Below the pieces are notes generated by a model. It saw only the letters and a program-made list of their open reading frames with translations. It had not been told where the DNA came from and did not search any database. A stretch of 55,785 bases of DNA from Candidatus Aminicenantota bacterium (lineage in GTDB: Bacteria; Acidobacteriota; Aminicenantia; Aminicenantales; Saccharicenantaceae): positions 1 through 55,785 of the forward strand of contig VGJC01000003.1 in the NCBI GenBank assembly GCA_016867635.1. The letters are read 5' to 3'. Below are positions 39,607 through 42,900 of the stretch, one piece after another. Each line of letters starts with the position of its first letter. The stretch's first letter is position 1. The position numbers and the translations under genes were made by a program.

Positions 39607-42600
39607 GTGCCAGAATCCGTCCGCATCAACCTCCACGGCCACTCCCATCTAAGCGACGGTGAGCTCACGCCGGGCCAGCTGGCCGAGCGGCTGGTCGCCG
39701 CGGGGGTCCGGACCGCGGCCCTTACCGATCACGACACGATCGAGGGACTCCCCGCCTTCCGCGAGGCCTTGACCCGGAAGGGCGTCGGTTTCGTCACGGG
39801 CGTCGAGTTGACCGTCGTCGACCTCGAGGAAGGGGAGAAGCACATTCTCGGATATGGCTTCGACCCCGACAACAAGGTCTTGGGAGACCTTCTGGGCCGG
39901 GCCGCGGGCCTGCGCCGGCCTTCCCCCCTGCAGGCCTTGTCCTCCGCGTTCGACAGGACCCGGTCGCCGGCCGAACGGCTGGCCACGGGGGCGGTCTCGC
40001 CGGGCGAGGCCATCCGCGCTCTCCACGAGGCGGGCGGCCTGGCCGTGCTCGCGCACCCGGTAGTCCCGGGGCAGAAGCCCGATCTCGCCGCGCTGGAAAA
40101 GCTGGTTTCCAAGTTCAAAGGCCTGGGATTGGACGGCATCGAAGCCTTTGGCTCCGCGTATTCCGAGGACCTCAGTCGAGACCTCGTGGCCTTAGCCGGC
40201 CGGCATGGCCTTCTCGTCAGCGCCGGCAGCGATTACCACGGTCCGGAGCTCTCGGCTTCGACGGAACTCGCCATAGACATGCCAGAGACGCTTTGGCGGG
40301 GCTTCCGGGACGGGCTCCTGCGGCGGGGCGCGGGGATGTCCGTCCGCCCGCCCCCCAGGGATTCGGCCGCCCGCCGCTCACTGCCGCGGCCGCACTGGAA
40401 CGCCTTTCTTCTCAGGATCATCCTGCCTACGGCCCTGGCCATCGGGCTCTTCGTCGTCTTCTTTTTCTGGGTTCTGATCCCCGCGTTCGAGGGCCGGCTG
40501 CTCGAGCGCAAACGGGACACCATCCGGGAACTCACGAACGTCGCCGCCGGCATCCTGGCCGAGTACGACGCCGACGTCCGGGCCGGCCGGCTGCCGCTCG
40601 CCGAGGCGCAGAGCATGGCGGCCGGACGCATCCAGGACTTGAGATACGGCAACGAAGGCAAGGACTATTTCTGGATCACCGACATGCGGGCGCGGATGAT
40701 CATGCATCCCTACCGGACGGACCTTAACGGTCGGGACGTCTCCGACTTCCAGGACCCCCGCGGCGTCCGGATCTTCGTGGAGTTCGTCAACGCCCTCCGC
40801 GACCAAGGCGACGCCTACGTCGAGTACGTCTGGCAATGGAAGGATGACCCGGACCGGCTGGAGCCCAAGCAGTCGTACATCAAGAAGTTCGCGCCCTGGG
40901 GATGGATCCTCGGGACCGGGCTTTACCTGGAGGACGTCCAGCGGGAGATCCGGGCCATGGCCGCCCGTCTTGTCCAGGTCTCCATCGGCATCACGGCCCT
41001 CTGCGCCATGCTCCTCCTGTTCGTCGCTGCCCAGAGCATGCGCATCGAGCGGCGCCGGGCCAAGGCGGAGGACGAGCTGCGTGAATCTCACGAAAGATAC
41101 CGGACGCTCGCCGAGTCCGCCACCGAAGGGACCCTGATGGTCCTCGAAGGGCGCCCGGCCTTCGCCAACCCGACGCTCCTCGACCTGCTCGACGTCACCG
41201 AGGACGAGCTCTCGCTGCTCGACCTGGCCGAGGTCTTTCCCGGCCTGGCCCTGTCCCAGCTCGAGGGTCCGGGACCCCCGGCCTCCGAGGAGACGGCCCT
41301 CCGGCGGCGCGACGGCTCGACGGTCGACGTCACCCTCTCGGCGGCCCGGCTCTCGTTCGCCGGGCGCCCGGGATTGGCCATCGCCGTCAGGCCCCTGCGG
41401 CCCGGCCGGCGCGGCGGGGCCGCGGCCGGCCGCGGCGACCGCGACCGGGATAACCTCATCGCCGACCTCCAGGCCTCCCTGATGTTCCTCAATGAGCCGG
41501 TCGCTCCGCTCGCCGGCGATCCCGTTTTCTGCGACATCAGGGACTCCGTGGCCGGAGGAGCCGCCCTTATGACGGCCCGGGGAGCGACCGCGGTCGTGGT
41601 CACGGCGGAGGGAGAACCGGTCGGGCTGGTCACGGACCTTGATATCCGGGCCCGCCTCGTGGCCCAAGGGCTGACGGGAGAGACCCCCCTGCACGCGATC
41701 ATGAGCGCCCCGCTCGTGTCGATCGAGAGCCGGGCCCTCGTTTACGAGGCCATCCTGACCATGCGGGAGAGGAACGTCGACCACCTCCTCGTCCGGGACG
41801 AGATGAACAAGGTGACCGGCGTCGTCCGCCACCGCGAGCTCCTGCTGTTCCACAGGTACTCGCTGGCCGTGCTCACCCAGGAGATCCGGCACGCCCCGAC
41901 GCCCGACGCGATCGCGGCCGCCCGCCGCGGCCTGCCCAACCTGGTCAAGGTCTTGGTCGAGGGCGGGGCCAAAGCGCGCAACATCACCCGGGCCGTGACC
42001 GCGGTGACCGACGCGGTCGTCATCCGGCTTCTCGAGCTCGGCGCCGCGGACCTCGGGCCGGCGCCGGCGCGGTTTTCTTTCCTGGCCCTGGGCAGCGAAG
42101 GCCGGGAAGAGCAGACGTTGGCCACGGACCAAGACCACGCCATCGTCTTTGAGGACGCGCCCGAGGAGGCCGTGGCCGACATCCAGGCCTATTTCCTCAA
42201 GCTGGGCCGGTTCGTGTCGGAGGGCATGGCCCTGGCCGGGTACCCGCTCTGCCTGGGAGAGGTCATGTCCGGCAACCCGCGCTGGTGCCAGCCGTTGAGG
42301 GTCTGGAAGGGGGATTTCGCCGAGTGGCTCAGAACGGCCGAGCCCAAGGACATCCTCGAGCTCAAGATCTTCTTCGATTTCCGGACCGTCCACGGAGAGG
42401 CGGAGTTCGCCGCCGAGCTCCGCCGCCACATCGACGGCGTCCTCGCCCAGGAGCCCCCGTTCCTCCTCCACTACGCCCAGTACACCCTGCAATACAAACC
42501 CCCCCTCAGCTTTTTCGGCCATATCGTCACCGAGGAGGGCAAGGAAGGCCACCGGACGTTCAACATCAAGGATGCCATGATGCCGGTGGTCAATTTCGCC

Positions 42601-42900
42601 CGGCTCTACGCCTTCCGCCACGGTGTCGCCGACGTCAATACTCTCGACAGGCTCCACGCCCTCCTGGGCCTCGGCACGCTCCGCGAGAGCCTCCACGACG
42701 AGGCGGCCAAGGTCTATGATTACCTCATGCAGCTTCGTCTGGCCCGCCAGGCCCGGGCGCTCGACAGGAACGAGGCCCCGGGAAATGACATCGATCCCAG
42801 CGAGCTGACCCACATCGAGGAGACGCTTCTGAAGCAGGCCTTCGCGCAGATCGCCAACATCCAGAAGAAGATCAGCTTCGATTTCCTCGGCGCGGCGTGA
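39607..42900 (+). CDS. Multidomain membrane sensor: PHP phosphoesterase - TM - sCache_2 - TM - PAS-like - CBS pair - DUF294 nucleotidyltransferase - DUF294 C-terminal domain
   Basis: INLHGHSHLSDGELTP...LTDHDTIEGLP...AHP...GSDYHG (PHP); GKDYFWITDMRARMIMHPYRTDLNGRD...GWILGTGLYLEDV (sCache_2); CBS around 41470-41880; LALGSEGREEQTLATDQDHAIVFED (DUF294 NTase); GTG start at 39607 inferred. Confidence 0.85.
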   Translation: MPESVRINLHGHSHLSDGELTPGQLAERLVAAGVRTAALTDHDTIEGLPAFREALTRKGVGFVTGVELTVVDLEEGEKHILGYGFDPDNKVLGDLLGRAAGLRRPSPLQALSSAFDRTRSPAERLATGAVSPGEAIRALHEAGGLAVLAHPVVPGQKPDLAALEKLVSKFKGLGLDGIEAFGSAYSEDLSRDLVALAGRHGLLVSAGSDYHGPELSASTELAIDMPETLWRGFRDGLLRRGAGMSVRPPPRDSAARRSLPRPHWNAFLLRIILPTALAIGLFVVFFFWVLIPAFEGRLLERKRDTIRELTNVAAGILAEYDADVRAGRLPLAEAQSMAAGRIQDLRYGNEGKDYFWITDMRARMIMHPYRTDLNGRDVSDFQDPRGVRIFVEFVNALRDQGDAYVEYVWQWKDDPDRLEPKQSYIKKFAPWGWILGTGLYLEDVQREIRAMAARLVQVSIGITALCAMLLLFVAAQSMRIERRRAKAEDELRESHERYRTLAESATEGTLMVLEGRPAFANPTLLDLLDVTEDELSLLDLAEVFPGLALSQLEGPGPPASEETALRRRDGSTVDVTLSAARLSFAGRPGLAIAVRPLRPGRRGGAAAGRGDRDRDNLIADLQASLMFLNEPVAPLAGDPVFCDIRDSVAGGAALMTARGATAVVVTAEGEPVGLVTDLDIRARLVAQGLTGETPLHAIMSAPLVSIESRALVYEAILTMRERNVDHLLVRDEMNKVTGVVRHRELLLFHRYSLAVLTQEIRHAPTPDAIAAARRGLPNLVKVLVEGGAKARNITRAVTAVTDAVVIRLLELGAADLGPAPARFSFLALGSEGREEQTLATDQDHAIVFEDAPEEAVADIQAYFLKLGRFVSEGMALAGYPLCLGEVMSGNPRWCQPLRVWKGDFAEWLRTAEPKDILELKIFFDFRTVHGEAEFAAELRRHIDGVLAQEPPFLLHYAQYTLQYKPPLSFFGHIVTEEGKEGHRTFNIKDAMMPVVNFARLYAFRHGVADVNTLDRLHALLGLGTLRESLHDEAAKVYDYLMQLRLARQARALDRNEAPGNDIDPSELTHIEETLLKQAFAQIANIQKKISFDFLGAA

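Follow-up and report, generated by a model that had tools for sequence, protein, structure and literature searches.

A single gene in the 55,785-nucleotide stretch of Candidatus Aminicenantota bacterium DNA analysed here (contig VGJC01000003.1; hereafter the window) encodes a protein that joins a PHP phosphoesterase, a membrane-anchored sCache_2 sensor, a PAS-like domain, a CBS pair and a DUF294/DUF294_C nucleotidyltransferase. We propose that it is an acetate-gated transmembrane receptor enzyme operating a reversible nucleotidylation switch, with the PHP domain as eraser, and that it is linked to acetate uptake; we put the probability of this reading at roughly one half. The domains, topology signals, invariant sites, symporter linkage, partner swap and single fusion that bear on it are all read from sequence. 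In the proposed mechanism, the sCache_2 domain on the outside would bind acetate or another C2/C3 monocarboxylate, and the signal would travel via the second transmembrane helix, a signalling helix and the PAS-like domain to the CBS pair, which likely contributes an adenine-nucleotide input. The combined CBS and sensor input would set the activity of DUF294/DUF294_C, which would attach a nucleotide, most likely adenosine monophosphate (AMP), to a protein; an enzyme of acetate assimilation or the adjacent symporter of the DUF485/ActP type would be a plausible target. The PHP domain at the N-terminus would be the matching eraser, freeing the nucleotide by phosphodiester hydrolysis. Writer and eraser in one chain would form a reversible switch, much as in GlnD, where a nucleotidyltransferase is coupled to an HD hydrolase.

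The preliminary description of this DNA had listed a single open frame with PHP, transmembrane segment, sCache_2, transmembrane segment, CBS and DUF294 in that order, and this is borne out by Pfam matches above the curated cut-offs, an AlphaFold2 (AF2) model and Foldseek. DUF294 (E = 4e-42, residues 776-914; 143.7 bits versus a cut-off of 21) and DUF294_C (E = 6e-38, residues 951-1093; 130.4 bits versus 22.5) are the strongest matches, followed by sCache_2 (E = 5e-37, residues 300-452), 2 copies of CBS (E = 2e-11) and PHP (E = 1e-9, residues 9-79), the second half of which is recognised through 2yb1 and NCBIfam. The PAS-like segment is less secure: AF2 shows an alpha/beta PAS-like domain and an NCBIfam PAS model matches at E = 3e-4, but Pfam PAS_8 (E = 0.006) stays below its cut-off. 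Hydrophobic segments at approximately residues 266-292 and 455-473 are flanked by positive charges on their cytoplasmic sides, which fits the predicted topology with the PHP domain ahead of the first transmembrane helix and in the cytoplasm together with the C-terminal enzyme, as had been suggested. The AF2 model (44-row alignment; mean predicted local distance difference test score 82.9) has long helices at both membrane crossings, and its predicted template modelling (TM) score of 0.45 makes the relative arrangement of the domains unreliable. Searched against the Protein Data Bank, Foldseek retrieves each part separately: 2yb1 and 7ug9 for the PHP domain, 4k08 and 5g4y for the Cache domain, and CBS pairs. 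No Pfam match to HisKA, HATPase or MCPsignal was found in the protein, and matches to MctS and CtpM are limited to its Cache part.

The best-supported functional prediction is that of the Cache ligand. In Adeh_3718 (4K08), W96 and W149 sandwich the acetate, which Y94, H107, Y147 and K160 hold in place (PMC3831638). These positions, quoted from that paper and with K160 aligned to K421, correspond to Y354, W356, H367, Y407, W409 and K421, and all 6 residues are identical. The same Tyr-Trp-His-Tyr-Trp-Lys set is invariant in 44 of 44 homologues, and the Cache part of the model matches 4K08 with a TM-score of 0.95 and a root-mean-square deviation of 1.2. PscD, whose pocket is built of the same residues, takes glycolate, acetate, propionate and pyruvate as ligands, with a dissociation constant of 31 µM for acetate (PMC5062169). 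Because the pocket is shared with Adeh_3718, the ligand is probably acetate or another C2/C3 monocarboxylate. The sCache_2 fold is common to Adeh_3718, PscD, McpP, CtpM and MctS, with an identical carboxylate pocket in the first 3; their outputs, however, are chemotaxis or histidine kinase modules, whereas the output here is a nucleotidyltransferase.

The proposed writer carries the Pol-beta motif GS-x(10)-DxD. G829, S830, D841 and D843, together with D924, which by analogy would be the third carboxylate, are invariant in all 44 homologues, as are the 9 metal ligands of the PHP domain, so that the catalytic residues on both sides are intact, as the preliminary description required. Foldseek's best folds for the DUF294 and DUF294_C part are the glutamine synthetase adenylyltransferase/removase GlnE (1v4a/3k7d) and the AMPylase DrrA (6yx5), which both adenylylate proteins, and DUF294_C falls in the GlnD/GlnE C-terminal clan. 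From this likeness of fold we infer that DUF294/DUF294_C puts a nucleotide, most likely AMP, onto a protein, with the qualification that identity to GlnE and DrrA is only 12-13% and that their targets and regulation are unrelated to those of this protein. GlnD offers a parallel in design: one chain under sensory input unites a writing nucleotidyltransferase with an erasing hydrolase, and the C-terminal domain is related; GlnD is, however, cytosolic with an HD eraser and ACT sensors, whereas this protein has PHP, Cache, PAS, CBS and 2 transmembrane helices, and Pfam finds neither HD nor ACT in it. No substrate of DUF294 proteins was found in the open-access library searched.

The PHP domain, by fold (2yb1, 7ug9) and metal-ligand pattern, belongs to the TrpH/CV1693 branch of the PHP superfamily, in which its nearest characterised relatives are CV1693, a 3',5'-nucleoside bisphosphate (pAp) phosphatase, and RNase AM. 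Those enzymes (TrpH-YciV subfamily) are free-standing and have a longer insertion, whereas this domain is fused, and its insertion between residues 93 and 134 is about half the length of that in CV1693, which is compatible with a larger, macromolecular substrate.

We next placed the gene in its family. Loci were gathered by scanning a genome collection with 6 peptide patterns taken from the query, which biases the census towards its relatives; 80 loci were kept. Proteobacterial and Acidobacteriota loci were drawn from the strongest DUF294 matches, and genes were called by open reading frame (ORF) length and homology. PHP-type genes occur in approximately 16 phylum-level groups, at the scanned loci all in metagenome-assembled genomes. 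A 120-row tree of the nucleotidyltransferase region places all 41 PHP-type rows on one side of one branch (Shimodaira-Hasegawa-like approximate likelihood ratio test 92), and the PHP fusion therefore probably arose once and then spread. This clade sits within a larger Cache-DUF294 group, apart from most cNMP-CBS-DUF294 proteins (cNMP, cyclic nucleotide). The preliminary description knew of no other case of the complete architecture, but it is neither singular nor confined to this genome: the family has hundreds of relatives, and the tree holds 41 genes of the PHP type. We found no paper on it in the open-access library searched (DUF294 with Cache, PHP, ActP or acetate permease), and the family is widespread and apparently unstudied. 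In one proteobacterial class, 72 of 119 sampled genomes match the DUF294 model, although weak matches may be GlnD or GlnE.

What is new here is that PHP-less homologues often adjoin a separate phosphoesterase gene of another fold, and that PHP-type genes have none of these. When only genes flanked by 900 bases or more on each side are counted, 17 of the 32 PHP-less Cache-DUF294 genes have such a neighbour and none of the 33 PHP-type genes does (Fisher p = 3e-7, a value that overstates the independence of what are related sequences). Calcineurin-like genes make up 14 of the 17; they lie directly beside the receptor gene, mostly on the same strand and within 60 bases, and the label requires about 5 changes on the tree. 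The other 3 encode AP_endonuc_2 TIM barrels, on the opposite strand. A Pfam scan of neighbours gives the same picture, with Metallophos the commonest family at PHP-less genes (16 of 87) and no such phosphoesterase family among the top 25 at PHP-type genes. In the cNMP-CBS-DUF294 relatives, 25 of 38 sampled loci have a separate adjacent RNase_T/DnaQ-type exonuclease gene in place of the fused PHP, a count made with a motif-filtered DnaQ profile that probably undercounts (L133 and L190 were missed). At L034 (10615-10717) and L036 (10675-10741), the PHP is itself a separate gene that overlaps the Cache-CBS-DUF294 gene by ATGA or GTGA. Since unrelated phosphoesterase folds replace PHP in PHP-less relatives, the swap supports an opposition of writer and eraser; it lends comparative backing to the earlier suggestion of transmembrane signalling with nucleotidyl transfer and an opposing phosphoesterase, which is thus supported in part.

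The proposed chemistry has a parallel in polymerases. PHP, DnaQ and calcineurin-like folds proofread for DNA polymerases (PolX, DnaE/PolC, epsilon, archaeal PolD), removing a 5'-nucleoside monophosphate from a hydroxyl, and the bond to be cleaved in freeing a protein side chain of AMP is of this type too. In PolX and DnaE/PolC, a Pol-beta-type nucleotidyltransferase is fused to or paired with a PHP or DnaQ exonuclease that removes the added nucleotide, but these are DNA polymerases without a sensor or membrane part.

Several other arrangements were seen at the scanned loci. In Desulfobacter (L042, L046, L194), clusters of 3 to 4 Cache/CBS-DUF294 genes alternate in orientation; the Cache pocket motifs of some are altered, and most have no recognised phosphoesterase beside them. 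At 4 proteobacterial loci (L172, L176, L180, L181), 2 DUF294 paralogues surround one pair of DUF4212 and symporter genes, with just one RNase_T exonuclease. A CRP-family regulator adjoins the calcineurin-like gene and receptor at 2 Bacteroidota loci (L063, 13678-14364; L074, 13736-14422). A DUF6915-like segment adjoins a DUF294 protein in L041 (6977-7309) and, by eye, forms the N-terminus of another in L046 (3058-5637).

The surroundings of the gene also point to acetate. The acetate-type Cache pocket, the adjacent DUF485/ActP-type symporter, acs and kbl are the strongest clues, and all were absent from the preliminary description. The order acs-kbl-symporter-DUF485-receptor is repeated at another locus (L023). 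Of the 33 PHP-type genes whose flanks are long enough, 32 have a symporter no more than 6 kb away (91 of 126 DUF294 genes overall). After its sixth transmembrane helix, the symporter has an insert, which measures 140-214 residues in 36 of the 38 symporters linked to PHP and 10 of the 12 linked to calcineurin-like genes, versus just 15-48 residues in 32 of 35 other symporters; this beta-rich insert is a possible dock for the Cache domain. The matches listed by Foldseek for the symporter are transporter folds alone and do not identify the insert. The N-terminal tail of DUF485, compared across groups, showed no cytosolic Tyr, Ser or Thr that was invariant and would be an obvious modified site. 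Between acs and kbl lies a small ORF (35533-35784, plus strand) of acyl-carrier-like look (GGIVDSFSMVSL) that has no Pfam match at E 0.001. The cNMP-CBS-DUF294 proteins share the CBS pair, DUF294 and DUF294_C and likewise adjoin a sodium:solute symporter (SSF), often with acs, but have a cytosolic cNMP-binding input in place of Cache/PAS and membrane; one of them, Pflu5625 of Pseudomonas fluorescens, is a member of the CrbS/R acetate regulon, which also includes ActP and a DUF485 protein (PMC5715377).

A number of observations weigh against an acetate-gated switch with PHP as eraser. The PHP domain scores far below every characterised PHP equivalog cut-off in NCBIfam (118.6 versus 400 bits for the pAp phosphatase; 99 versus 375 bits for RNase AM). 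No recognised phosphoesterase is adjacent to 15 of the 32 PHP-less Cache-DUF294 genes (Desulfobacter, many Bacteroidota), and AP_endonuc_2 barrels may be isomerases. The phosphoesterase seed set was picked after looking at the neighbours, the Pfam scans with their top 25 families being the unbiased part. Finally, deletion of the P. fluorescens cNMP-CBS-nucleotidyltransferase gene had a negligible effect on growth on acetate (PMC5715377).

The main rival is that acetate prompts DUF294 to synthesise a nucleotide that serves as a diffusible signal (whether an oligonucleotide or a cyclic or pyrophosphorylated form), which PHP or the swapped partner degrades. Pol-beta-type enzymes do include second-messenger synthases, nucleotide degradation is common to DnaQ-like, PHP and calcineurin-like enzymes, and the partner swap fits a signal degrader and a protein eraser equally well. 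However, the nearest solved folds, GlnE and DrrA, adenylylate proteins, DUF294_C belongs with the C-terminal domains of GlnD/GlnE, and a conserved second-messenger effector gene was not seen in the neighbourhoods; we regard a diffusible signal as unlikely, though it is the foremost competitor. Slightly less probable still is a PHP domain that acts as a tethered housekeeping-type nucleotidase (e.g. a 3',5'-ADP phosphatase) or RNA 5' exonuclease on metabolites or RNA without reversing the nucleotidyltransferase. Its kinship with CV1693 and RNase AM would suit such a role, and the acyl-carrier-like ORF is a possible source of pAp; yet the calcineurin-like/RNase_T swap, with no such neighbours at PHP-type genes, ties the activity to the nucleotidyltransferase, and the shortened insertion fits a larger substrate.

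We consider an acetate-gated RNA modification switch improbable, in which the nucleotidyltransferase would modify the end of a tRNA or small RNA and the phosphoesterase would trim that RNA. RNA is a substrate for the PHP (RNase AM) and RNase_T folds, and Pol-beta enzymes include the CCA-adding and poly(A) enzymes, but a Pfam search of the protein found no RNA-binding domain and DUF294_C resembles the protein-modifying GlnD/GlnE.

The frame from 39607 to 42900 is uninterrupted and codes for a single chain, with GC contents of 0.71/0.45/0.89 at the 3 codon positions. GTG 39607 is the start codon, because homologous proteins begin a few residues ahead of the first PHP strand, because of the codon periodicity, and because a promoter match, TTGACA-18-TATGGT, ends at 39574, approximately 32 bases upstream. 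A longer form from ATG 39316 was rejected, since GC is flat across the in-frame extension; a start solely at the internal ATG near 40336 (Met244), for which the preliminary description had allowed, falls because invariant PHP residues are encoded upstream of it. An assembly or frame artefact fusing 2 genes, also raised there, was rejected: a split form does exist, PHP being its own gene at 2 homologous loci, but the codon periodicity supports the frame and the same fusion recurs in dozens of independent assemblies, as one clade. Judged by the nearest named homologues, the host is a Candidatus Aminicenantes-like metagenome-assembled genome. The distribution of the gene is patchy, since just 3 of 60 related genomes, counting the one from which the window comes, hold full-length relatives. 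A genome of the same genus carries an 87% identical symporter, broken by a contig end, which counts against simple contamination. Coordinates are collected in Table 1.

Table 1. Features of the receptor gene and its neighbours, in window coordinates.
Feature	Position	Strand	Remarks
Whole gene, PHP-TM-sCache_2-TM-PAS-CBS2-DUF294-DUF294_C, 1097 residues	39607..42900	+	GTG start, stop 42898-42900
PHP phosphoesterase domain	39607..40326	+	metal ligands H10 H12 D17 H42 E67 H79 H150 D209 H211
Transmembrane helix 1, residues 266-292	40402..40482	+	hydrophobic segment, AF2 helix
sCache_2 extracytoplasmic sensor, residues 300-452	40504..40962	+	predicted ligand residues Y354 W356 H367 Y407 W409 K421
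Transmembrane helix 2, residues 455-473, then signalling helix	40969..41025	+	hydrophobic segment, AF2 helix
PAS-like domain, residues 491-596	41077..41394	+	weak profile matches, AF2
CBS pair, residues 637-754	41515..41868	+	Pfam, Foldseek
DUF294 nucleotidyltransferase domain	41932..42348	+	G829 S830 R833 E835 D841 D843; conserved D924 just past domain
DUF294_C substrate-binding (GlnD/HEPN-clan) domain	42457..42885	+	Pfam
Sigma-70-like promoter match TTGACA-18-TATGGT	39545..39574	+	divergent intergenic region; 1 found versus mean 0.0 in shuffles
DUF485 small membrane protein, divergent neighbour	39102..39395	-	PF04341, E = 6e-11
ActP/MctC-type sodium:solute symporter (SSF), divergent neighbour	37180..39105	-	
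Beta-rich symporter insert, residues 215-362, predicted periplasmic	38020..38463	-	
Acetate--CoA ligase (acs)	33643..35466	+	above NCBIfam cut-off
Glycine C-acetyltransferase (kbl)	35860..37107	+	above NCBIfam cut-off

Known bacterial receptor outputs are kinases, chemotaxis modules and cyclic-nucleotide enzymes. More tentatively than the reading above, the protein could represent the first class of transmembrane receptor nucleotidyltransferases, in which extracellular acetate directly gates reversible protein nucleotidylation by writer and eraser in one chain, the eraser having been replaced several times across bacteria by unrelated phosphodiesterase folds (PHP, calcineurin-like, RNase_T) of types also used in polymerase proofreading. 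If true, a receptor with a nucleotidyltransferase output coupled to acetate uptake would add a further signalling currency at the membrane, and the linked symporter, the acetate-type pocket and the exchange of erasers provide 3 concrete handles that make DUF294 function testable.
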